From Parvularculaceae bacterium (GTDB lineage Bacteria > Pseudomonadota > Alphaproteobacteria > Caulobacterales > Parvularculaceae): 64,000 nucleotides of DNA. Of this stretch, positions 15,273 to 28,003 are shown one piece after another. The notes below the pieces were generated by a model. It saw nothing but the letters and a program-made list of their open reading frames with translations. It ran no database searches and was not told where the DNA came from. The stretch's first letter is position 1. Every line of letters begins with the position of its first letter. The position numbers were made by a program, and so were the translations under genes. The stretch lies in the NCBI GenBank assembly GCA_028284065.1, contig JANQSJ010000010.1:1-64000 (forward strand), in the 5' to 3' direction.

Positions 15273-16250
15273 ATGACCAGCATGCCAGCCCCCCGCCGCC
15301 TCGCCGTCACGTCCCATGAGGGCGAAGAGATCACGCTCTCCGTATACGAAGCCGGCGCCGGCGAAGGTCGGCCGACGGTCGTCCTCGTCCATGGCTGGCC
15401 GGAGCTCGCCTATTCCTGGAAGAACCAGATCGGCCCCCTCGCCGACGCCGGCTACCATGTCATCGCGCCGGACTTGCGCGGCTTCGGCGGCTCCGACAAT
15501 CCAAAGGAAAAAGAGCGCTACACCATTCATCACATGGTCGGCGACTTGCGCGGCGTCCTCGACGCGTGCGGCGTCGAGAAGGCGGTTTTCGTCGGCCATG
15601 ACTGGGGCGGGTTTCTCGTCTGGCCGATGGCGCAACTGAACCCGACCCGCGTCGCCGGCGTCATCGGCGTGTGCACGCCGCACAAGGCGCCGCCGCCCGT
15701 CCCGCCCCTGCAGATCCTCGAAAAGCGCTTCACCGCCAATCATTACTTCATCCGTTTCCAGCCCGTCGGGCCGGCGGAGGAGAAATTTACGGGGCATGAG
15801 GAGAAATTCTTCCGCATGATGTTCCGCGGCCCTGCCCCGCGGGCGATATGGGAGAAACTCGTCCCCGGCGTCTACGACATCTTCTCGATGTTCGACCGGT
15901 TCAAAGACTCCCACGACGCGCAACTCGTCTTGCCGCCGGAGGAATTGGCCGTCTACGTCGACGCCTACAAGGCGTCCGGCTTTCACGGCGGGATCAATCT
16001 CTACCGCAATGTCGACGGCAATTATCACCTGATGAAGGACGTCGACCCGGTGGTGACGCACCCTGCGTTCATGATCTCGGCGGAGCTTGACCTCTTCCTG
16101 CCGCCGGAGACGACCGACGGGATGGAGAAGATCGTCCCCAACCTCGACCGCGCGCTCATCGAGGGGTGCGGCCATTGGGTGATGTGGGAGAAGCCGGACG
16201 AACTGAACCGGCTGATGATCGAGTGGCTGGCGCGGAAATTTCCGGCGTGA
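15273..16250 (+). CDS. alpha/beta hydrolase, epoxide hydrolase type
   Basis: The 325-residue protein has the oxyanion HGWPE motif (residues 40-44), the nucleophile Asp110 in VGHDWGG, and a C-terminal catalytic His in EGCGHWVMWEKPDEL. Asp rather than Ser as nucleophile, together with HGWPE, points to the soluble epoxide hydrolase/haloalkane dehalogenase branch. HGWPE favours epoxide hydrolase, which would convert epoxides to diols in the cytoplasm. The ATG at 15273 begins the conserved part; a longer reading to 15180 lacks support. It is monocistronic and its natural substrate is unknown. Confidence 0.9.
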   Translation: MTSMPAPRRLAVTSHEGEEITLSVYEAGAGEGRPTVVLVHGWPELAYSWKNQIGPLADAGYHVIAPDLRGFGGSDNPKEKERYTIHHMVGDLRGVLDACGVEKAVFVGHDWGGFLVWPMAQLNPTRVAGVIGVCTPHKAPPPVPPLQILEKRFTANHYFIRFQPVGPAEEKFTGHEEKFFRMMFRGPAPRAIWEKLVPGVYDIFSMFDRFKDSHDAQLVLPPEELAVYVDAYKASGFHGGINLYRNVDGNYHLMKDVDPVVTHPAFMISAELDLFLPPETTDGMEKIVPNLDRALIEGCGHWVMWEKPDELNRLMIEWLARKFPA

Positions 16251-16561
16251 GGGCTGCGGCGGCTGATTGCCTGTCGGCGGCAAAGCGGGACCTTCGCAAG
16301 GGGATTTGAAGTCCGTTCAATTCCAAAAAGCGGTTATAAGAAGGAAAGCGGGTATCGACTAAGTCCGTCTCCGCGATGCATTAGATCGGCGATTACGCAA
16401 TCATCAGCTCCGACAGGCTTGCGGGCTGTCGCAACCCTGCGGTAGCAGCGAATTGGACGTCATTCGGGAAACGCTCGACCGCCTCAACCAGACAATACGT
16501 CATCAACCGCGCCCATGACAAAAGAGCGGGCGGGCGATGCCCAGGCCCGAAGGGTTCCATC
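16251..16561. other. 311-bp intergenic stretch without a recognisable gene
   Basis: The region lies between the epoxide hydrolase and the DUF418 gene, both rightward. One frame is free of stops for about 50 codons but has no ATG or ribosome-binding site and no family I recognise. It marks the left edge of the less GC-rich accessory part. I see no RNA gene or strong hairpin. Confidence 0.5.
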
Positions 16562-17779
16562 ATGACGTCTCACTCCATTTCAACGTCTGAACTCAATGCC
16601 GCAACGGCTCAGGCGGCCCCCACTGCCGTTTCCGCGCGCATCGACAGTCTCGATGTCCTGCGCGGGTTGGCGGTGCTGATGATTTTCGTCGTCAACATCA
16701 AAATGATGGCCAGCGGGTACAATCACTACGGCGAGCGAACCCTCTACACGGGAGAATACGACCAGGCGATCGGCTACCTTCATAACCTATTTGTCCACGG
16801 AAAGTTCGTTACGATTTTCACGGGGCTTTTTGGCGCGGGTCTGGCGCTGCTTCTCGCCCGCGAACGTCCCGTTCCGCTTCCAATCGTGCTTCGTCGCCTT
16901 TTCTGGCTGGGCGTATTCGGCTCCCTGCACCTCGTTTTCATCCGTGAAGGCGACATTCTGGTGAAGTATGCGCTGGTTGGGGTGATCGCGATTCCCTTCG
17001 TCAAGATGAAGGGATCGTCGCTTGTTCTACTGGGCGTCGGGGGGCAAGCGGCGTTGTTCGTCGCTTCTATCCTGCTTCCGGTCGACTATGGGGACGAGCC
17101 GCTGCTCTGGCGATCGGACCCCGATATGCATCTCGAGGTCGAGCGCATCATGCTTGGCTCAATCGCTGGTCAGATATCCGCTCGTCTTGATACGGTGCAG
17201 TTCTACTTCGTCGACCTTTTCCTGCGGGGCCGTGGATGGCTTGGCGCCTTGTCAATCATGATGATGGGGATGGGGTTGTTCAAAATCGGCTTCCTGACGG
17301 GGAAGCTTTCGCCAAAGACGTATCTGGTAAGCGTTGCGGCCGGCGCGATCTGCCTCGTGCCTTTGGCTTTGTATACTCCGTTGCACTGGGGCGGTTTGCC
17401 GAACGCCGACATCGTCTTGAACGGCGCCTGGAAATTAAATCAATTCGGCGGCGCGCTCGCCTGGTCTGCGCTCACGGTGGGGCTCGTTTCGTTTGGTTGG
17501 AAGGCACATGCGCTGTCGGCGGCCGGTCGAATGGCGTTCACGATCTACATATTGCAATCGGTCATAGGGCTTTTGTTGTTTTCAAGCCTGGGGCTTGGGC
17601 TGTTCGGTCAGTTGTCGCTTGGTGAACTGACGATTGTCACAATCATCACTATCGCCTTTTTCCTGATCGCGTCCCCGCTTTGGCTTTCTCGGTTTCGCTT
17701 CGGGCCGCTTGAGTGGGTTTGGCGATCGCTGACTTATGGGCGCCGCCAGCCACTGTTGCGGACACCGAAATCCGCTTGA
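16562..17779 (+). CDS. DUF418 domain membrane protein (YeiB-like)
   Basis: The 405-residue polytopic membrane protein has the DUF418 features: SLDVLRGLAVLMIFVVNI at the first helix, then GKFVTIFTGLFGAGLALLLAR, and a C-terminal DUF418 half with GRMAFTIYILQSVIGLLLF and a final RFRFGPLEWVWRSLTYG. I count about ten membrane segments. The family's function is unknown; some members are proposed transporters or acyl-transfer related. The ATG follows GAAGGGTTCCATC. Codon use is less GC-biased than in the genes to its left, so it may belong to the accessory block. Confidence 0.9.
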   Translation: MTSHSISTSELNAATAQAAPTAVSARIDSLDVLRGLAVLMIFVVNIKMMASGYNHYGERTLYTGEYDQAIGYLHNLFVHGKFVTIFTGLFGAGLALLLARERPVPLPIVLRRLFWLGVFGSLHLVFIREGDILVKYALVGVIAIPFVKMKGSSLVLLGVGGQAALFVASILLPVDYGDEPLLWRSDPDMHLEVERIMLGSIAGQISARLDTVQFYFVDLFLRGRGWLGALSIMMMGMGLFKIGFLTGKLSPKTYLVSVAAGAICLVPLALYTPLHWGGLPNADIVLNGAWKLNQFGGALAWSALTVGLVSFGWKAHALSAAGRMAFTIYILQSVIGLLLFSSLGLGLFGQLSLGELTIVTIITIAFFLIASPLWLSRFRFGPLEWVWRSLTYGRRQPLLRTPKSA

Positions 17780-17919
17780 TTGCTAAGGGCCAATCGGCGC
17801 CGATTTGTGTCTTCGGCCACTTAACGACAGCGTTTTTTGTTGCGTTGTTCGGCCGAGACGACAGTGGCGCCGTTAAGCGGTGACCGCTGCGCTCAATGAC
17901 CACTCATGCGCCAGGGCCG

Positions 17920-18554
17920 CTAAAGCTCCAGTCCTTCTGAGAGGGCAAGTGCGTCTTCGACCTCGGCGCCGAGATATCTGACGGCGCTGTCGATCTTGGC
18001 GTGGCCAAGTAGCAGCTGAATCGCCCTTAGGTTCCGGTTTTCCGGTAGAGCATTGTCGCCTTAGTCCTCCGCAGAGAATGCGCCGCATAGGCCGACGAGG
18101 GTAGTCCGATCGCTTCTGTCCAGTCTCGAACAAGCCGAGCGTACTGTCGGGTTGTCAAATGCTGGCCAGGTCGCTTGCGGCTCGGAAAAAGCCAGTCGCG
18201 CGGTCCTGGACCCTTTTTGTCGATCCAAACGGAAATTGCCCGGCGCGTTGGTTCCGTTAGCTCGAATTGGACCGGAGATGATGTTTTTGGCTGGACGATT
18301 TTTGCGCGTGCTAAAGGGTCTTTTCCCCTGCACACGTCTGACACCATTAAGCTGACGAGGTCGCAACCACGCAGTTTTCCGTCAAGCGCCAGGTTGAAGA
18401 GCGCCAGATCCCGCACCTTGTTTGCCATCGTCAAGCGTACACGGATTTCCCAAACCTCTTGAGCTTTCAGTGGCGATTTTTGTCCAACGAGTTTGCCTTT
18501 GTTCCAAGCCCTAATTTTCGGGTTCTTGCTGTTTTGCTGAGTCTTAATTTGCAC
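17920..18554 (-). pseudogene. frameshifted tyrosine recombinase (integrase)
   Basis: The first frame (18554 to 18027) encodes 175 residues of a small tyrosine recombinase: AWNKGKLVGQKSPLK, the Arg-containing KLRGCDLVSL, LFPSR, and HSLRRTKATMLYRKTG. It then ends at TAA. A frame shifted by one base continues without a gap as NLRAIQLLLGHAKIDSAVRY and LGAEVEDALALSEGLEL to a TAG at 17920-17922, carrying the second catalytic His and the Tyr nucleophile. One missing A in GGAACC near 18031-18036 explains the break. Together the parts give the usual ~210 residues of this orphan integrase family. The GTG start follows GAAGGAAAATAG. Either the gene is inactive or the base is a sequencing error. Confidence 0.88.
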
Positions 18555-18718
18555 CCTATTTTCCTTCGAAGGGCCATAATTTAGTCTTGTCGGGTTGGGG
18601 CGAGCGACATCTGATGAACCGCTTGATCAATGAAAAGGTTTGCTGGTTTCGCGCCCCTTGCTGCAGAGTGGCTGGGAGTGGTTTTGCGGCAAGACTATGC
18701 TGGCAATGATAGGAAGAA

Positions 18719-19378
18719 ATGACCTCGAAGCTGAAAGAACGTAAACCCGGCAGGCCGTCAGCTGCATCCGTAGACGGGCGTGAGCTGATAAAGCGCGCGG
18801 CGTTGGCCGAGTTCGCGCGCAACGGATTCAATGGCGCCCGTATAGAGCAGATCGCGAAGGCGGCTGGGGTCGCGAAGCCGCTTGTCTACTACCATTTTAC
18901 ATCGAAAGAAGAGCTTTGGACGCAATCCGTATCGGAAGCGTGCGATAAGCTGCGCTCGCAGGTGGAGGAGTTTGCCGCGAGGTTCGCCGATCAGGACCCT
19001 GAAGACGTCATCGATGCGTTTTCGCTTGGTCTGGTGCGGTTCGCCGCGGAAAACCCGTCACTTGTCAGAATATCTATGGACGAGACACGCCAAGGCACCG
19101 AGAGAGCGGAATGGTTGAAGGCGAACTATCTTGTGCCGACGCACAAGATCGCCACGTCACTCGTCAACGAGATTGCTCGGCGTACAACCGGAAAAAAGAA
19201 AAAACGCCTTGCCGCCCATGTGGTGCCGACGCTTTTTGGGGCTGTCAATTTTCCTTATATCAGTAGAGAGATTGTCTCTGAGGTTCATAAAGTTGACGTC
19301 TCCAGCGACGCCTATGTCGCCGAACAGGCACGATACATTTCTCTATTGATGAGGGCGCTGATAGAAGATGCGAGCTGA
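18719..19378 (+). CDS. TetR/AcrR family transcriptional regulator
   Basis: The 219-residue protein has a TetR N-terminal helix-turn-helix at about residues 25-70 (LIKRAALAEFARNGFNGARIEQIAK, then GVAKPLVYYHFTSKEEL). The ligand-binding C-terminal half is typical in size but not diagnostic. It would bind an operator as a dimer and be released by a small ligand that I cannot name. It lies between the broken integrase and the CHRD gene and reads towards the latter. The nearby envelope operon starting at 20205 is a plausible target, although no operator palindrome was identified. Confidence 0.92.
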   Translation: MTSKLKERKPGRPSAASVDGRELIKRAALAEFARNGFNGARIEQIAKAAGVAKPLVYYHFTSKEELWTQSVSEACDKLRSQVEEFAARFADQDPEDVIDAFSLGLVRFAAENPSLVRISMDETRQGTERAEWLKANYLVPTHKIATSLVNEIARRTTGKKKKRLAAHVVPTLFGAVNFPYISREIVSEVHKVDVSSDAYVAEQARYISLLMRALIEDAS

Positions 19379-19426
19379 ATAGCGCTCGAACCTTCTATCT
19401 GCGGTCGTACCTTGGTGTTGAGGCGC

Positions 19427-20092
19427 CTACTTGGCGTCTACCAAGTGCAGCTGCCCACGGATGTCGCCGAAATACGTCTGCCCGGCCGTATGCAGGTTGA
19501 AATAGAGCTCCCGCTCGAAGCCAATGTTCGCCATGCCCGCGACAGTCTTCACCTTATCCGCCGTTAGCGCCTGAACGATCGGACACCCAGCGGTGAACGC
19601 CCCGACGATCCCGTGGCCACCCTCAACGGTTGCGGCGATGTCCTCATTCTGAATTTCAAAGAATACTTCGCCATCGGAGAACTCTTCGACGAGATCTCGA
19701 TTTCTCCCAAGGTCGACGATGATCGGGCCCAGCTGCCCCGGACGACCGCAATGAATATGGAACATTGTGATGTCGTCGAGCGCCACGCCGTCGACCCTCA
19801 CATGCGCATAGGCTTTGCTGAAGTCCTTGCTAAACGCGAGCGTACCGTGTCCACGGGATTTGCGCGCGTCTCGGTCCACCGACGGTTTTGTCGATTTGAA
19901 CTGACTTGGCGCCATCCGTGGTGTGTCCTGTTCTTCGCCGCCTTCCTGGTGTGGGCTCAGCCACGCCTCGAAGACGGGACCGCGTTCATCTCCCGCATCC
20001 GGCCTTAGTTCAACGCCGCTGAACGACTTATCGGAAGCGCCCGCGGCGGGTGCGTAGAGCAAGGTCGCGGTCAAAATGAGTCTGCGGATCAT
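19427..20092 (-). CDS. exported CHRD-domain protein
   Basis: The 221-residue protein has a signal peptide (MIRRLILTATLLYAPAAGA, cleavage before Ser20 or nearby). A CHRD domain is recognisable by HIHCGRPGQLGPIIVDL and the final LYFNLHTAGQTYFGDIRGQL. CHRD domains occur in metazoan chordin and in many secreted bacterial proteins of unknown role. Between signal and domain is a ~60-residue hydrophilic stretch. It is divergent from the propeller lipoprotein gene, with 112 bp between the start codons, so it may share control with that operon. Confidence 0.85.
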   Translation of the reverse strand: MIRRLILTATLLYAPAAGASDKSFSGVELRPDAGDERGPVFEAWLSPHQEGGEEQDTPRMAPSQFKSTKPSVDRDARKSRGHGTLAFSKDFSKAYAHVRVDGVALDDITMFHIHCGRPGQLGPIIVDLGRNRDLVEEFSDGEVFFEIQNEDIAATVEGGHGIVGAFTAGCPIVQALTADKVKTVAGMANIGFERELYFNLHTAGQTYFGDIRGQLHLVDAK

Positions 20093-20204
20093 GCCCGAAT
20101 TCCTCTTCGTGCGGTTCGAGCTTGCGCATGTAACAATATTATACGAAAAAGTCTAATAATGCGTTTGAGCGCGCCCGATTTGGACGGAAGGTGGAGTGGC
20201 GGAC

Positions 20205-21971
20205 ATGCGGCATGAACTGGCATGCGTCTGTATGGCGATCGTGCTTATCGCGTGTGGGGACGGGCGCCCCGTATCTGAACCACAAGATTTGGCATCGGCA
20301 TCTTCAGCAGACGCGACCGCCGCCAAACAGGCCGCTTCGAGCGATCATGAACATCTTCTGTTCGGACGGGTAACCGACGACAATGGTCGGCCAATCGAAG
20401 GTGTGATGGTTCGACTTCAGAATGCCGAAGCGCTTCTAGCCGAGTCGGTTTTTACGGATCGGGACGGCGTTTATCGACTAACGACGGATCTTTCAGGAAC
20501 GTTGAGCGTTCGAACCCGGGTTCCGTACTATTCGGACCGCGAATTTGAGGTCTCCTTCGCGGAGAAGAACGTCGTCGAATCTGATATCGAGCTCGCGGCT
20601 ATGGCGAGCGACGAAGAGATTTCGGCGAGTCTCCCGTCGGTTTTTCACTTCAACCAAATCGCTTTCGACGAAGACCCGACGTCTGTCTTGTCACGTAGCG
20701 GCTTTCAGCGCGACTGCGCCGGCTGTCATCAGTTCGGGAATGAATTCACGCGGCGCGACCGAGACCAAAGCCTCTGGTCGCCGACGATCGCTCGGATGCA
20801 TGCCTATTTCGGAAATACCGACGCTGAGTTGATCGCGCGCCGCGCCGCTATGTTGGATATGAGCGGCCCCTATGGCGATACGGTGATGACGCGGCCGAGT
20901 TTTCCAGTAGACCCGGAGGCGCACTCAGCCAAGATCTACGAATACCCGCTTGAGGACGTCATATTTCCTCATGATGCGGAGATCAGCCCCGTTGACGGCA
21001 AGTCCTATTCCGTTGATCGCCTGGGCGACACAATGGTCGTAACGGACCTGGTGACGGGCGGATCGACGCACATCGACATGCCGTCGCCAAAGCGACCAGC
21101 CGAACAGAACGCAAACGGCTACACGTCGAGAAGTTCAAAGCCTGGGCCGCATTCCCTGGCGCTTGGGAAAGGCAATCTCTGGTACACAACGAACTCGACC
21201 TCGGACGAAATTGGAGTCTTTGATGCGGCGTCCCAGAAATGGCGAGAGAGCTTCGTCGTGCCGGAGCCGGGGCGTTATCCGCATACGGTCAGAATAGATG
21301 CGAAGAACATCGTCTGGTTCACCCTAGCGGGTTCGGAACAGATTGGCCGGCTGGACCCTGCGACCGGCGGCTTTGACCTCATTGACTTGCCAAAACGCAG
21401 GCCCATCGGGATCGCGCTGGTGACAACGCCCTATGGCATCGACGTCAGCCCGGTGGACGGAAAGGTCTGGTATGCGCGGCTCTATGGCGACGCCATTGGG
21501 TTTGTTGATCCGCAGACACTTGAGGTGACGGAGTACGATTCGCCTATTCGCGGGCCGCGTCGGCTGCGTTTTAACAAAGCTGGCGAGCTATGGGTTACGG
21601 GCTACACGGAGGGTATGATTGCGCACATCAAGCCTGACACGATGGACATTGAGGTCCATAAGATGCCGGAGTTTGAAAAAGACCATCGCCCCGCGCCTTA
21701 CTCGCTCGCAGTCCATCCGGATACGCAAGACATATGGATCAATGAGACAATGACGGATCGCGTCTACCGGTTCATTCCCGGTGAACGGCGCTTTGTCAGC
21801 TACCCCATGCCGTTGAGGGGCACCTATACCAGAGATTTTAGTTTCACCGAGGACGGCAAAGCCTGCACCGCGAACAGCCCGATTATGAATGTCGCGTTGG
21901 AAGGCGGGATCGCCAACCTGATTTGCATCGATCCTGACGCCATCGATTCCAACCCAATCGAGCGCGGCTGA
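20205..21971 (+). CDS. haem-motif lipoprotein with Vgb-like beta-propeller
   Basis: The 588-residue protein starts with a short lipoprotein signal (MRHELACVCMAIVLIA|C, lipid on Cys17). A carboxypeptidase-regulatory-like beta-sandwich follows (residues ~52-130, FGRVTDDNGRPIEGVMVRL). Next comes a segment with a c-type haem motif CAGCH (Cys171 to His175), then a six-bladed Vgb/streptogramin-lyase-like propeller (~235-580) with repeats such as GNLWYTT, KNIVWFT, GKVWYAR, GELWVTG and QDIWINE. It should sit in the periplasm, bound to a membrane. The ATG at 20205 behind GGAAGGTGGAG is preferred over GTG at 20196. It is the first gene of a tight four-gene operon. The function is unknown; a redox or quinone-linked sensor or enzyme is only a guess. 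Confidence 0.82.
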   Translation: MRHELACVCMAIVLIACGDGRPVSEPQDLASASSADATAAKQAASSDHEHLLFGRVTDDNGRPIEGVMVRLQNAEALLAESVFTDRDGVYRLTTDLSGTLSVRTRVPYYSDREFEVSFAEKNVVESDIELAAMASDEEISASLPSVFHFNQIAFDEDPTSVLSRSGFQRDCAGCHQFGNEFTRRDRDQSLWSPTIARMHAYFGNTDAELIARRAAMLDMSGPYGDTVMTRPSFPVDPEAHSAKIYEYPLEDVIFPHDAEISPVDGKSYSVDRLGDTMVVTDLVTGGSTHIDMPSPKRPAEQNANGYTSRSSKPGPHSLALGKGNLWYTTNSTSDEIGVFDAASQKWRESFVVPEPGRYPHTVRIDAKNIVWFTLAGSEQIGRLDPATGGFDLIDLPKRRPIGIALVTTPYGIDVSPVDGKVWYARLYGDAIGFVDPQTLEVTEYDSPIRGPRRLRFNKAGELWVTGYTEGMIAHIKPDTMDIEVHKMPEFEKDHRPAPYSLAVHPDTQDIWINETMTDRVYRFIPGERRFVSYPMPLRGTYTRDFSFTEDGKACTANSPIMNVALEGGIANLICIDPDAIDSNPIERG

Positions 21972-22618
21972 TGGCTGTCCTTGTCGATCCGGATCTCTAT
22001 TCAATCCTGACGCTAGTCGGAATTTTCTGGTCGATCCTGACCTACTGGCTGATGTTTTCGCGCGCAGGTAGGGGGGCGCTAGCGAACCCGTGGGCCATAG
22101 CGATCTTCGGGGTCGCGTTGGTCCTCAGTCTCGGACATGTCCTCGCGGAAATGGAGCGATTATCGGCGTTGGCTGGCGGCATGACGCCGCTTGATGGTCA
22201 GGTTGGTTATGGGCGAGCGGAGGTTCTTGAGTTCGCTCGGCGACTGGGCGCCGAGGCTCGACGCGAATACGCCATGTTCCAGCTTGGCGCGGACACGCTC
22301 GCGCCGCCGGCGTTCGCCTGTTTTTTGATGGCCGTCTATCGATCGACCGTGCCGTCTTTGGTCGTTCAGAGAGTCCTGACGCTGATTGCATGCGTCTACT
22401 TTTCATCCGTATTGCTCGCCAATGCGCTGATGCCGGTGATCATGCTGAGTTACCCTGCAACGGATGCAGGTGTAGTTCCGTTTCTCATGGAGGCGGCGCC
22501 GCGGTTCGATTTCATAAAATACGCCAGTCACGGATTGGCCTGGCTGATTGTTTTCGGCGCGTGGCTGTGGCGGCTGGGCGCATGGGGCGGTCGCCGTATC
22601 GCAGCGCACGCGCGTTAA
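21971..22618 (+). CDS. uncharacterised membrane protein
   Basis: The 215-residue protein has about five hydrophobic segments (near residues 9-29, 41-60, 107-125, 130-152 and 186-205). The loop between the second and third is hydrophilic and Arg/Glu-rich (EVLEFARRLGAEARREYAMF). I do not recognise a family. Its ATG overlaps the stop of the propeller gene (TGATG), so the two are translationally coupled and likely made in fixed ratio. The context suggests a membrane partner of the haem-motif lipoprotein, for example a subunit carrying electrons or a substrate, but no haem-ligand pattern is evident. Confidence 0.8.
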   Translation: MAVLVDPDLYSILTLVGIFWSILTYWLMFSRAGRGALANPWAIAIFGVALVLSLGHVLAEMERLSALAGGMTPLDGQVGYGRAEVLEFARRLGAEARREYAMFQLGADTLAPPAFACFLMAVYRSTVPSLVVQRVLTLIACVYFSSVLLANALMPVIMLSYPATDAGVVPFLMEAAPRFDFIKYASHGLAWLIVFGAWLWRLGAWGGRRIAAHAR

Positions 22619-22644
22619 TACTCCCAACGTCAAAGGAAACGAGA

Positions 22645-23130
22645 ATGGGGCGTTCGATTTGGATTCAAGGAGCAGTTGCCGCTCTTGTCGCAGTGGTCGC
22701 GACAGCGCTGATGTCGTCCGAAGCGGAGGCGTCGCTGGCGCTCGTCGACTGGAACATGGAGGCGCGGCGGAACTTGCCGCTACATCTGAAGGCGTGGTTG
22801 GGGGCGATGCTATTGGCGAATGCTGCGTCGGTTTTTTTCGTGAGAAAGCACCTAGCCGCCAGATGGGTCCTTGGCGCCTTCATCGTTAGCCACGCTTGGA
22901 TCGCCATTCTTGAGATTACGGAGCTCTATACAGTACAGGGCGGGTTGGTTTCGTTGGGCCATATCATTGTCTGGACCCCAGCCATCATCGCGCTACTAAG
23001 GTATCGATCGGAAATTGCGCTTCCCTCTGCCTACGGTATTTGGGCGTGCATGATGCTGCTATTCTACGCGGTCTCTCTAGTGTTTGATGTAAGAGACGCT
23101 TTCATCTGGCTGAACGTGCGGGTGTTCTGA
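22645..23130 (+). CDS. uncharacterised small membrane protein
   Basis: The 161-residue protein begins with a hydrophobic segment after MGRSIWIQGA, either a signal anchor or a cleaved signal ending near EAEA, followed by about four further membrane segments. I recognise no family. The ATG at 22645 lies behind AAAGGAAACGAGA, a good ribosome-binding site. A longer reading from 22390 would overlap the previous gene in another frame and is rejected. It sits 26 bp after the preceding membrane-protein gene and 5 bp before the FAH-like gene, inside the same operon. Confidence 0.78.
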   Translation: MGRSIWIQGAVAALVAVVATALMSSEAEASLALVDWNMEARRNLPLHLKAWLGAMLLANAASVFFVRKHLAARWVLGAFIVSHAWIAILEITELYTVQGGLVSLGHIIVWTPAIIALLRYRSEIALPSAYGIWACMMLLFYAVSLVFDVRDAFIWLNVRVF

Positions 23131-23135
23131 TTAGG

Positions 23136-24332
23136 ATGATAAGAGAGACCGCAACCGGCATCTTTCTTGTAACTATCGTATTGGTGTCAGCCATCTTCCT
23201 TGCGAAGGCGACGTCTGAGGATCCGAAATACAATTCAGCGACGTTCGAGAGCGAGCCTTTCGTCCAGACAATTGCGCCGCGGTCAATTGCCTTGACGCTG
23301 GCGCAGTATGTTTCCGATGAAGGTAAGCGCGTCGCATTGCTCGTCGAAGGCTATGACGAGGAGATCGTTACTGGCGTCGCCCTGGTTGAGCTTGGAGGAA
23401 CGCCGTCCGAAGATCCGTTTGAAGCGCTTTCCTCCGTCGATCGAACGATTTTCGAGACTGACGTCTTTCGACAAGCAAAACGGACGTCGGTGAATGTCGC
23501 CCGCCTCTTGCCGGCGGGGCCGTCCGGCGTGCGGCACATCGGCATCGGGACCAACTTTCCAGAGCATGCCGAAGAAGCGAACAGCGATCCGGTATTCCAT
23601 TTCCCGAAGTTTGGCGCGGCGACGCCAGCGCGAACGAGCGTCCGAGCGCCAGAAAACAGTTTGCTGGATTATGAGGTTGAGCTCTGCATGCGGTTCGACC
23701 GACCGATTGAGACAATCGATGACTTTGACGCCGCGGCGAAGGGCGTCTTTTTGTGCGGCGATTTCACCGACCGCATCGCGTTGATCAAGCTTGCCGATCC
23801 GGACAATCTGGATTCGGGATATGGCTTCAGCGACTCAAAAAGCGGGCCGGGCTATTTCCCCACGGGACCCTTTCTAGTCGTGCCAAACGACTGGTCATCT
23901 TTTGTCGATAATGTGCGCATGATGACGCATCTCAACGCCGAGCCGAGGCAGGATGCTCGAGGTCGGGAGATGACGCTTGATTTTCGTCAGTTAGCCGAGC
24001 AATCAATCGCGGACATGTCAACCGAGCGTTTCTTCTATCGCGACGCATTTTATAAACTTGCGCCAAACGGACGAATAGAAGCCGATATGACACTTATGTC
24101 CGGTACGTCCGAGGGCGTGATTTTTACGTCGCCAAAGCGCCACGACTACATCGAAATTGTCATCGCGTATGTTTTGGCGGGCGGGCCCTTGAGCGGCAAG
24201 AGCCTTACTGACTTTGGTGTTGATGTGTTCATCGAGAATGAGATCGCTTCCGGGCACTTCCTTCAACCTGGGGATGTCGTCGATTATCAAGCGACATATC
24301 TCGGAGATATTCGCGTGACTGTCGCTCAGTAA
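23136..24332 (+). CDS. membrane-anchored FAH-fold hydrolase
   Basis: The 398-residue protein has one N-terminal membrane anchor (residues 8-25, IFLVTIVLVSAIFLAKA) followed by a fumarylacetoacetate-hydrolase fold. Visible FAH features are GVRHIGIGTNFPEHAEE, the metal ligands Glu180 and Glu182 in LDYEVELCM, Asp209 in CGDFTDR, PTGPFLVV, and the C-terminal GTSEGVIF and LQPGDVVDY. Family members are cytosolic C-C bond hydrolases or decarboxylases acting on beta-diketo acids. An anchored, apparently exported member is unusual. It is the last gene of the operon with the propeller lipoprotein. The substrate is unknown. Confidence 0.85.
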   Translation: MIRETATGIFLVTIVLVSAIFLAKATSEDPKYNSATFESEPFVQTIAPRSIALTLAQYVSDEGKRVALLVEGYDEEIVTGVALVELGGTPSEDPFEALSSVDRTIFETDVFRQAKRTSVNVARLLPAGPSGVRHIGIGTNFPEHAEEANSDPVFHFPKFGAATPARTSVRAPENSLLDYEVELCMRFDRPIETIDDFDAAAKGVFLCGDFTDRIALIKLADPDNLDSGYGFSDSKSGPGYFPTGPFLVVPNDWSSFVDNVRMMTHLNAEPRQDARGREMTLDFRQLAEQSIADMSTERFFYRDAFYKLAPNGRIEADMTLMSGTSEGVIFTSPKRHDYIEIVIAYVLAGGPLSGKSLTDFGVDVFIENEIASGHFLQPGDVVDYQATYLGDIRVTVAQ

Positions 24333-24560
24333 ACTGAGTGCGGCTTATGTTTTTTCCTGCGCCTGTGAGCCAACTCTTAGGGGGCTCATAGATTTCTGTA
24401 ACTGCGTTCAGCTTGCAGATGTGTGCGAGCGTAGAGCGCCCATTTCTGTGTGGTAGAGGAAGAGCCATATTCATGCTTAGTCTGTAGGGAGAGAGGTCCC
24501 GTTCGTTCAGCTGTCTGCAGTGGACTGTCTCTCTACTTAATATCAGCAGGCGGCGCGTCT

Positions 24561-25787
24561 TTACTCAGTGCACGATATTGAATCGCCGGTTCGCGCCTCG
24601 AATTGTAGGCAAATTCGTTGTCCTTCGTCGCGGCGTCCTGTGCGGTTGAGCAATTCAGCAAGCCGGCTCGTGGTTTCGGGATGAAAAGGGTAGTCCTGCA
24701 GGATGCGCCGGTACCAGCTCTCCGCTTCGAAAAGCCGGCCGGCGGCGCGGTCTTTCTCCGCGACCAGAAGTCCAGCGCCAGCGTGCCAACGGCCAACATA
24801 ATGGGGTTCATCGGTGTAAGCATCTTTCATCGCTTCGTAGGCAGAAGAAAGGGAATTGTAAGACTGATCCGGGTTTCCAAGAAGGTCGTGCAGCTCTGCA
24901 AGGTTCACCTGCACTTCCCAATTGTTCGGTTCTTCCATGAGCGCGGTTTGATAGGCGGCAAGTGCGCCGTCGAAATCTCTCTCGGCGGTACGCACAAGAC
25001 CGACGATCCGCCAGGTGTCGGCCTGGGAGGGGTCGCGACGGGCGGATTGTTCAGCAAGGTGGCGCGCGCGTTGAAGCACGTCCTTTGCCTTGGGCTGATC
25101 GACGATGCCCTTCTCAAGCGCCTCTGCCACCGTTGATGCCCCTTCGACATCTAGACCGATCGCTTTTGGCCACCGGATGACCCTCTGAACAAGCGCTGCT
25201 GCAAGGCCGGTTTGGGCCATCGGATCGGGCGCGGGACCATTCAACACACGGTTATAGAGCTCAATTGCGGCTTCATTGTCCGCCCGGGTGAACCTCATGT
25301 AACGGTCCATTGCCAGGTCGATGTCGTCAACCGCCCGAGCGTTGGCCCCGTCCGCGTCTCCATCTAGGAGAGATGAAACGCCGAAGGCCGCTATGATCAG
25401 TAATAGCGCCGCTGTGGCGCCAATGGCTAACAATCGACGGCCATATGGCTTTTTCGCAGGTTGAACGGCTTTCAGCAGGCGATAGCCGCGCTTGGGGACT
25501 GTCTCGATGTATTGCGGGTTTTTGGGGTCATCCCCCAGCGCCTTTCGTAGCTTGAAGACCGTTCGGCTCAGCGTGTCCTCGCCCACGGTCGTATCTGGCC
25601 AGAGGGCTGCAAAAAGGACATCGCGGGTAACGACCTCGCCTTTGGCGTCCACCAAAACGCCGAGGAGGTCAGCCACCCTCGGTTCGATCCTTTCAAGCTG
25701 GTTTTCCCCTTTCGACAGGGTGCCTGCCGCGAGATTCACCTGCCAAGGGCCGAGGCAAAAGACGGGGCGATGGATAGTCTGCGACAT
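24561..25787 (-). CDS. membrane-bound winged-helix regulator with TPR domain
   Basis: The 408-residue protein has an OmpR/CadC-type winged helix at residues ~10-105, with VADLLGVLVDAKGEVVTRD, LSRTVFKLRKALGDD and the closing YIETVPKRGYRLL. A transmembrane segment lies near 116-135, and a TPR-like region of about 270 residues follows (TWRIVGLVRTAERDFDGALAAY, NNWEVQVNLAELHDLLGN). It is a CadC-style one-component regulator: DNA-binding inside, sensor outside. The start is taken at ATG 25787, just before the winged helix; ATG 25874 is possible. It is divergent from the S41 peptidase gene and probably controls it or the operon to its left. Confidence 0.88.
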   Translation of the reverse strand: MSQTIHRPVFCLGPWQVNLAAGTLSKGENQLERIEPRVADLLGVLVDAKGEVVTRDVLFAALWPDTTVGEDTLSRTVFKLRKALGDDPKNPQYIETVPKRGYRLLKAVQPAKKPYGRRLLAIGATAALLLIIAAFGVSSLLDGDADGANARAVDDIDLAMDRYMRFTRADNEAAIELYNRVLNGPAPDPMAQTGLAAALVQRVIRWPKAIGLDVEGASTVAEALEKGIVDQPKAKDVLQRARHLAEQSARRDPSQADTWRIVGLVRTAERDFDGALAAYQTALMEEPNNWEVQVNLAELHDLLGNPDQSYNSLSSAYEAMKDAYTDEPHYVGRWHAGAGLLVAEKDRAAGRLFEAESWYRRILQDYPFHPETTSRLAELLNRTGRRDEGQRICLQFEARTGDSISCTE

Positions 25788-25934
25788 CGGAGGCGTTACC
25801 GAGATATCTTTGCCGGAGTTCAGGCGTAATGCGGTGATCAGGGTTTGGTCAGGCGAAAAGGAAGGTCTCGTCATAGCCAATTGAACGCCGGCTTGCCAAG
25901 AAAACGGGCCTCGTTGACCGATGGAGAAGATTTG

Positions 25935-27446
25935 ATGCGTTCCACTTTGTTCGCTGCGTTAGCGTCGTGGATGATCACGTCTTGTGCGGCCCTGCCAGAC
26001 GTCAGGAGCACTGTAGCCGATGCGCCGGAACTGCCGCCGTTTGCGTTTGCTGCTGATGAGGAAGCGCTCTCGTCCGCGAAACTCGGTGAGGATCTCACGG
26101 CTCTATATGAGGGGCTTCAGCAAGCGCACTACGATCTCTACGCCCGCCAGTCGCGCCAGGCTTATGATGCGCTCTTCGCCGAGATGCTTGCAGCGTTCGA
26201 TCAGCCTCTTCGTCCCAGCGAGGCAATCTTTCCATTCCAGCGTTTCGTCGCCTTTGGAAACATTGCCCATGCGCGGATGGAAGGGATAAACGCGGTTTGG
26301 GCAAGATATCGTGCGGGCGGCGGGAAAGCGCTTCCAGTGTTTCCAAAGGTCCAGGAGGGTAAGCTTTTCGTCAAGGTGAGCTACGACCCGTCCGTCGTTC
26401 CTGGAGAGCGTATCGTCGCAATTGAAGGAGAGGCGGCCGCGGTTTGGCTGTCTCGGCTCTACAAACGGATATCAGCCGACAACGACTATCTTGCGGGAAG
26501 TCTCCTGGAAATGTCGTTTCCGTTTCATCTCATCGAGGCAATGGGGCCAGAGGAGAACGTGACCTTGACGCTTGAGGATGGGGATGGGGCCCGCAGAGAT
26601 GTTGCAATTCCGACTATCGATCTCGAGACCCTAAAGTCTCGCCGCCAGACCGAAGGGTCCCAATTCAGCTTTGATGCCTCAGGCCGGAAGTCGGCCGTAC
26701 TGGATGACGGTATTGCTTACCTCCAGCCGGGGCCGTTTTACGGGATCGAAACCCCAGAAAACCCATGGGACAATTCCGCATTCAAGGACTTTATCGACGA
26801 TAGCTTTGGCGACTTTCTCGAAGCGGAGGCCCGTGCCTTGATCATCGATCTCCGGCAAAACCCAGGTGGAGATAATTCGTTTTCAGACCATATGATCGCA
26901 TGGTTTGCTGACGAACCGTTCCGCTTCGTTTCTGAGTTCGATGTGCGGTCAAGCGCTCAGTCGGCGGCATCAAATCAGGCCCGCATTGATTTGGATCCGA
27001 GCCTCGCGGATGGGGTCTCCGGCGACCTCGCAGCTGGCTATGAAAGCACTCCATACGGCGAGACGTTTACCTTTGAACTTCCGTTTGCCCGCCCTCGAGC
27101 AGGTCGTCAGTTTGAGGGGCCCGTCTATGCCATCATCGATCGCTACAGCTACTCTAACGCCGTGAATGTCGCTTCCATACTGCAAGACTATGGTTTTGCC
27201 ACGATCCTAGGCGAGGAGACTTCAGATCTCGCAACCAGTTACGGCGCGATGGAAACGTTTGAGTTGCCGCATTCCGGCTTGACCGTCGGCTATCCCAAGG
27301 CCCTAATAATTCGGCCTTCAGGGGACGTCTCTGACCGCGGCGTTCGCCCTGACGTCGCATTCAAAGCGCCGGTTATCGCGGATCGCGACGTTTTCCTCGA
27401 GAAAACCCTTGCCCATGTTCGCAGAGACCTCAGTGACGATCAGTAA
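25935..27446 (+). CDS. S41 family peptidase-like lipoprotein
   Basis: The 503-residue protein starts with a lipoprotein signal (MRSTLFAALASWMITSC, lipid on Cys17). A helical N-terminal region and a PDZ-like part (GERIVAIEGEAAAVWLSRLY) come first, then the C-terminal-processing-peptidase domain with ALIIDLRQNPGGDNSF and the catalytic-serine strand IIDRYSYSNAVNVASIL, then GEETSDLATSYG and RGVRPDVAF. S41 enzymes cut C-terminal tails of exported proteins; some relatives act on other substrates. The ATG at 25935 is set by GGAGAAGATTTG. It is divergent from the winged-helix/TPR regulator with 147 bp between starts, suggesting a regulator-target pair. Confidence 0.88.
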   Translation: MRSTLFAALASWMITSCAALPDVRSTVADAPELPPFAFAADEEALSSAKLGEDLTALYEGLQQAHYDLYARQSRQAYDALFAEMLAAFDQPLRPSEAIFPFQRFVAFGNIAHARMEGINAVWARYRAGGGKALPVFPKVQEGKLFVKVSYDPSVVPGERIVAIEGEAAAVWLSRLYKRISADNDYLAGSLLEMSFPFHLIEAMGPEENVTLTLEDGDGARRDVAIPTIDLETLKSRRQTEGSQFSFDASGRKSAVLDDGIAYLQPGPFYGIETPENPWDNSAFKDFIDDSFGDFLEAEARALIIDLRQNPGGDNSFSDHMIAWFADEPFRFVSEFDVRSSAQSAASNQARIDLDPSLADGVSGDLAAGYESTPYGETFTFELPFARPRAGRQFEGPVYAIIDRYSYSNAVNVASILQDYGFATILGEETSDLATSYGAMETFELPHSGLTVGYPKALIIRPSGDVSDRGVRPDVAFKAPVIADRDVFLEKTLAHVRRDLSDDQ

Positions 27447-27656
27447 GCCGAGCATATTTCACAGGAGTGAGGCATGCGAAGTCGTTGTGGTCGGCGGTCA
27501 CATCGGAAGCAGGGTGTGCGAAAATCTCCAGAGTGCATAGGTCAGCTAGGTTTACCGATCGAGTAACTATCCAACTAAGTTCCAATCAATAAATCGCTAT
27601 GTCTCCTTTTGCGCCAAAGCAGCGCTTCAATCTAGCAACGGGCCAGTTCCGCCAGA

Positions 27657-27786
27657 CCTCATCCTGAGGGCGATCGGATGGGGACCAATCGCGCACCAGC
27701 GATGCGTCTCGAAGGACGGTTGAGAGCTCGGACAAACCGCCATCCTTCGGGACGCGCGCGCTTCGCTCGCGCTCCTCAGGATGAGG
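27657..27786. repeat. 130-bp intergenic repeat with 13-bp inverted ends
   Basis: CCTCATCCTGAGG (27657-27669) and CCTCAGGATGAGG (27774-27786) are perfect inverted ends. The inside holds further partly complementary arms, TCTCGAAGGACGG and CCATCCTTCGGGACG, and the GCGCGCTTCGCTCGCGC hairpin. This wording is that of palindromic intergenic elements found in many copies in alphaproteobacterial genomes. No coding capacity is seen. It may be a small non-autonomous (MITE-like) element or a folded transcript region. Confidence 0.85.
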
Positions 27787-27855
27787 GACGTAAGGTGCGC
27801 CTCGTTTGGGCGACGACCCGGCCAATCGCCGCTTGCTAAAAATTTTCATCGAACG

Positions 27856-27886
27856 CCTGAACCCCAGCGCCCGCGCGGGGTTCAGG
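27856..27886. terminator. hairpin between convergent genes, possible terminator
   Basis: CCTGAACCCC (27856-27865) pairs perfectly with GGGGTTCAGG (27877-27886) over an 11-nt loop. It lies between the S41 peptidase gene and the convergent beta-lactamase-like gene. CCTGTTTTC follows on the plus strand, which makes a rightward terminator the more likely reading. It is 100 bp or more from either stop codon, so it may instead be part of the repeat field. Confidence 0.45.
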
Positions 27887-28003
27887 CCTGTTTTCGAAAA
27901 TCTCATCGAACACCCTCAAGGGGCCCCTTATCATCCCCTCCGTCGGCGGCGCATTTCCGCCGGCGGGCTCTTTGACAAGTTGGAATTTTGGGCGTCTTGC
28001 AGC

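Follow-up and report, generated by a model that had tools for sequence, protein, structure and literature searches.

A four-gene envelope operon in a Parvularculaceae genomic island encodes a putative haem c, Vgb-type propeller lipoprotein and a predicted exported FAH-superfamily enzyme

FAH enzymes are usually regarded as cytosolic and virginiamycin B lyase (Vgb) propellers as single-domain antibiotic lyases, and periplasmic oxidation of the polyvinyl-alcohol type combines a PQQ quinohaemoprotein and a cytochrome c with a beta-diketone hydrolase, which is a serine hydrolase. In the window, a stretch of 64,000 nucleotides of Parvularculaceae DNA, we analyzed four plus-strand genes, A-B-C-D, spanning 20205-24332, that would resemble the polyvinyl-alcohol system in joining a haem-linked propeller protein to an exported C-C hydrolase. 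They differ from it in that A has no PQQ family match, D has the FAH fold instead of that of a serine hydrolase, and the operon contains no such dehydrogenase. A haem-linked propeller with an exported hydrolase is a kind of system already known, of which this operon would encode another version. Our preferred reading, to which we give about an even chance, is that of an accessory, probably acquired envelope operon for catabolism or detoxification, in which A would take part in the oxidation of a compound and D would carry out metal-dependent C-C hydrolysis. Among the papers searched, none described the A-B-C-D combination, in agreement with the original suggestion of a possibly undescribed system.

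The genes of the operon are as follows.
20205..21971, + strand: A, lipoprotein with CarboxypepD_reg, a CxxCH segment (possible c-type haem) and a C-terminal Vgb-type beta-propeller
21971..22618, + strand: B, all-helical 215-aa membrane protein, without a named family
22645..23130, + strand: C, membrane protein of 161 aa with about 4-5 helices, without a named family; 26 bp after B
23136..24332, + strand: D, FAH-superfamily enzyme, predicted to be exported or membrane-anchored, active site intact; 5 bp after C

These positions and the tight packing, with a TGATG common to the A stop and the B start and gaps of 26 and 5 bp, are those originally reported, and all four products are indeed predicted to be exported or membrane proteins. 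The A-B overlap is kept in three genomes, at 1 nt in the window and in locus L048 and at 4 nt in L113. A was taken to start at the ATG at 20205, with the GTG at 20196 as a possible alternative. A sequence search for a promoter or operator before A gave nothing beyond chance level. No PADLOC model for anti-phage defence matched A, B, C, or D, and a reading as a defence system was dropped on this basis.

The earlier description of A as a propeller lipoprotein with a haem motif held: a lipobox (LIAC17) could be read from its sequence, a CAGCH motif lies at residues 171-175, and Pfam matches were obtained to PF13620 (CarboxypepD_reg), PF24684 (Vgb_lyase, E=2.6e-21), and PF08450 (SGL), with no match to the PQQ propeller domains PF01011/PF13360. 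The CxxCH residues C171, C174, and H175 are invariant across eight A relatives with identities down to 31%, as is M198, a conserved candidate for the distal haem ligand, and A probably carries one covalent haem c, to judge from the CxxCH motif. Compared with profiles, the CxxCH region gave a weak match to cytochrome c-555 (E=0.74). The AF2 model of A was built with two sequences and has a pLDDT of 60, with a usable propeller and with residues 135-255, which hold the CxxCH region, below a pLDDT of 50, so that the fold is not resolved in this segment. Three further residues, H256, H316, and H360, sit in successive propeller blades and are invariant across the same eight relatives, likewise down to 31% identity, a pattern that would be expected of a metal or active site. 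This pattern speaks against the improbable alternative that the system serves electron transfer or scaffolding only, with A as a non-catalytic c-type cytochrome whose recognition propeller assists a dehydrogenase encoded elsewhere and D as a co-expressed general periplasmic scavenger of oxaloacetate or acylpyruvate.

The top PDB match of the A model was virginiamycin B lyase (2z2n; target TM-score 0.80-0.82), a representative of the Vgb lyases (PF24684; PDB 2z2n, 2qc5), with which A shares the propeller fold. In contrast to these enzymes, A is twice as long, is a predicted lipoprotein, carries the CarboxypepD_reg and CxxCH segments, and has about 20% identity in the fold alignment; against the curated streptogramin-lyase families it scored 48 and 44 bits, far below the cut-off of 600. 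'PH' inner-strand motifs in consecutive A blades align with the region of Vgb H228/H270, and H316/H360 can be aligned with the catalytic His pair, of which we take Vgb H228 to be one partner, in a register that is ambiguous since the blades repeat. The H270 mutant of Vgb is inactive (title of PDB 2z2p). This nearness of the propeller to virginiamycin B lyase in both sequence and fold favors our main rival explanation, detoxification of or self-protection against an aromatic or macrocyclic antibiotic, in which A would inactivate or bind the compound as Vgb lyases do, D would cleave it further, and the products of genes found as neighbors elsewhere would export it. We consider this explanation rather unlikely; to our knowledge, the described Vgb lyases have no haem motif, and no efflux gene was identified adjoining the operon in the window. 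Elsewhere, the same genome encodes another Vgb-type propeller, a generic one with 33% identity to A (G000:C2:149573-150136, L034).

D matched PF01557 (FAA_hydrolase, E=5e-18, 66 bits vs. a gathering score of 23.9) and resembles members of the FAH superfamily (FAHD1, HpcE; PDB 3r6o) in its domain, His-Glu dyad, metal ligands, and Lys, differing from them in its predicted export, its own N-terminal segment, and its weak sequence similarity to solved members. Residues H144, E147, E180, E182, D209, and K235, corresponding to the His-Glu dyad, the E-x-E and Asp metal ligands, and the Lys, are invariant in 14 D-like proteins; their roles were assigned by analogy with an HpcE alignment and with FAHD1, in which the catalytic dyad is His30-Glu33, with D102 and K123 in addition (PMC8398924). 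By this analogy, D should be catalytically competent. Hydropathy revealed a single hydrophobic N-terminal segment at residues 5-23, the candidate for the anchor originally ascribed to the FAH protein. Given that the N-termini of several distant D relatives resemble signal peptides, this segment may instead be cleaved, and only the hydrophobic segment itself, not its role as a lasting anchor, is upheld.

Searches of Pfam, NCBIfam, and PADLOC gave no significant match for B or C. The helical membrane character of B is indicated by hydropathy and by its AF2 model (pLDDT 79); a known fold was rejected for B, as the model had no PDB match under E=0.29. Relatives of B occur in G661, G180, and G797, and those of C in G661 and G180, with weak ones in other genera. 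C was also considered as a bis-His haem b protein, and this candidate was rejected because the wider C family keeps just one histidine, H106, conserved within GHxxxWxP.

Scanning bacterial genomes with A returned one close relative, in the uncultured Sphingomonadaceae genome G661 (locus L048), which has A-B-C-D in the window's order with identities of 61/47/50/57% over full alignments and a type I sulfatase gene (motif CSPTR) inserted between C and D. Given that the two halves of G661 SecA share 66% (N-half) and 48% (C-half) identity with the SecA of the window, vs. 78% within the window's family, G661 lies well outside this family and probably outside its order. Since the whole set is kept in order in so distant a genome, a chance origin is very unlikely, and the conserved order also argues against the electron transfer or scaffold explanation. 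Upstream of and divergent from the L048 operon (L048:4618-7780, minus strand) are genes for an FAD monooxygenase, a TetR regulator, and an MFS exporter, a group that could represent a detoxification cassette. The exporter is Tet(A/B/C)-like, and these neighbors favor the antibiotic detoxification explanation, but the score of the exporter falls under the family cut-off (258 vs. 475 bits).

The window and G661 together answer in part the question of whether the four genes stay together in distant genomes: the ordered set recurs in G661, but D orthologues (54-63%) stand alone in four of the window's relatives (G021, G024, G044, and G015), and A, too, can be present in the absence of B, C, and D, so the set is not an obligatory one. 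The solitary D genes favor the scaffold explanation; in G015, the D orthologue (L015:7604-8880) is split over two frames, reflecting either a pseudogene or a sequencing error. In the D tree, the window's D groups with these solitary family proteins (support 94/97, slightly below the program's threshold) and not with D of G661; therefore, D may have joined, or been reassembled with, A-B-C more than once, the alternative being loss of A-C in the relatives. B turned out to be very rare: it was absent from all 60 relatives of the window's own genome (0/60), occurred only in G180 among 337 genomes of a class sample, apart from a weak match in G252, gave merely weak further matches among 299 genomes of a phylum sample, and had one more carrier, G797, among 299 genomes of G661's order. 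Plasmid searches yielded no full-length A and no B, and D-like genes only on Ruegeria and Rhizobium plasmids, without A-C.

Genes adjoining the dispersed parts of the operon give further indications of its chemistry. In G797 (L113), A (55-57%) overlaps B by 4 nt, C is missing, and the pair has a nitronate-monooxygenase-family gene on one side and a GST gene on the other. At a distance of about 6 kb, there is a D-like gene in overlap with one for a DAPG hydrolase (PF18089; L113:23-3407, minus strand), which suggests acylphenol or beta-diketone chemistry. This arrangement recalls loci of the DAPG hydrolase PhlG, from which the window's operon differs in having no PhlG homologue. An FAD_binding_4 oxidase gene and a TetR-like gene adjoin the D-like/PF18089 pair, making it a candidate acylphenol-degradation locus. 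In G180, B-C (56 and 62-67%) directly follows a cytochrome P450 gene, with a divergent TetR-like gene (L051:12828-16095); the best NCBIfam match of this P450 is SolI, with a score below the cut-off, and from this locus B and C may serve oxygenase systems in general. Distant D-like genes (30-35%) adjoin genes for FAD ring hydroxylases of the RdmE type and TetR regulators in G202 and G180, and have P450, Rieske, GMC, and thiolase genes around them in G150. MFS-like and TetR-like genes stand beside D-like genes in G182 and G285. These two loci and the DAPG hydrolase beside the D-like gene of G797 favor antibiotic detoxification. By contrast, in G671 and G678, A occurs without B, C, and D and directly follows a TonB receptor gene; a VanA-type oxygenase lies near A in G671, with the same arrangement in G678, suggesting uptake and use of the compound. 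A also stands without B, C, and D in G175, with an SDR gene, and in G677, where a relative with 31% identity overlaps by 4 nt a PQQ dehydrogenase/quinoprotein gene with an N-terminal CxxCH (L129:1854-5842, minus strand), a further likeness to polyvinyl-alcohol-type oxidation that also favors a scaffold role for A. Taken together, ring hydroxylases, P450, DAPG hydrolase, Rieske oxygenases, TetR, and MFS genes suggest that a phenolic, polyketide, or terpenoid compound is oxidatively broken down or detoxified, and the P450, FAD ring hydroxylase, DAPG hydrolase, Rieske, TonB, and PQQ contexts fit the envelope catabolic or redox system originally envisaged.

Under the preferred reading of an oxidizing A and a hydrolytic D, A would be exported as a lipoprotein and, at the cell surface, bind a hydrophobic compound of aromatic, polyketide, or terpenoid type, which it would probably oxidize or from which it would accept electrons, using its one probable covalent haem c and a Vgb-like propeller with three conserved histidines on its face. 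B and C would be the membrane partners of A, passing electrons to the respiratory chain or allowing substrate passage, and D, at the outer face of the inner membrane, would hydrolyze a C-C bond of the dicarbonyl so formed in a metal-dependent reaction, or decarboxylate it; in G661, the sulfatase may remove sulfate first. Here, we infer the redox role of A, the direction of electron flow, haem loading, the substrate class, and the roles of B and C. Counting against this reading, D stands without A, B, and C in four relatives and hence does not need them, the CxxCH region of A is of low confidence in its AF2 model, the window's D is apart from that of G661 in the tree, and B has no interpretable fold match. 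More specifically, and as a tentative proposal that we hold to be doubtful as a whole, the operon could encode a surface degradation machine in which a monohaem cytochrome c-Vgb propeller lipoprotein with a three-His site oxidizes a phenolic, polyketide, or terpenoid compound, electrons leave via B-C, and the exported FAH enzyme cleaves the product. An exported FAH clade recurring together with a CxxCH-bearing, lipid-anchored Vgb-type propeller would define an unrecognized surface attack on difficult compounds, and functions would follow for two nameless membrane-protein families. The genes are few, and the predictions of a covalent haem and of dicarbonyl hydrolysis are directly testable.

The operon lies in a compositionally distinct part of the window, with the following features.
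16001..28000: low-GC, low-GC3 island with the operon, GC 0.51-0.61 vs. a window mean of 0.64
18027..18554, - strand: tyrosine integrase/recombinase fragment, 175 aa (PF00589, E=1.7e-13), inside the island
18719..19378, + strand: TetR-family regulator (PF00440), inside the island
19427-20092: CHRD gene, inside the island
24561-25880, - strand: winged-HTH/TPR regulator, inside the island
25845-27446: S41 peptidase, inside the island

A DUF418 protein is also encoded in the island, whose genes have GC3 values of 0.57-0.70 vs. about 0.8 in most genes outside, and no convincing terminal or boundary repeats of the island were found. Given the low GC, the integrase fragment, and the absence of B from 60 relatives, the operon was probably acquired by horizontal transfer. 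Island composition and the integrase fragment would also be consistent with a chance aggregate of genes without a common function, as would the mosaic affinities of the proteins, whose nearest counterparts are those of G661 for A, of G180 for B and C, and of the window's own family for D. The same order in G661, the A-B and B-C pairs in further genomes, and the conserved overlaps all stand against such an aggregate, and an orphan operon or chance assembly, rejected in view of the ordered G661 set, is the most improbable of the explanations that we weighed. The adjacent CHRD protein, put forward as a further exported part, was absent from the vicinity of every related locus examined, and its gene does not belong to the conserved unit. 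The TetR-family gene at 18719..19378 could possibly regulate the operon, and TetR genes are also present beside the related loci L048, L051, L076, L078, and L113.
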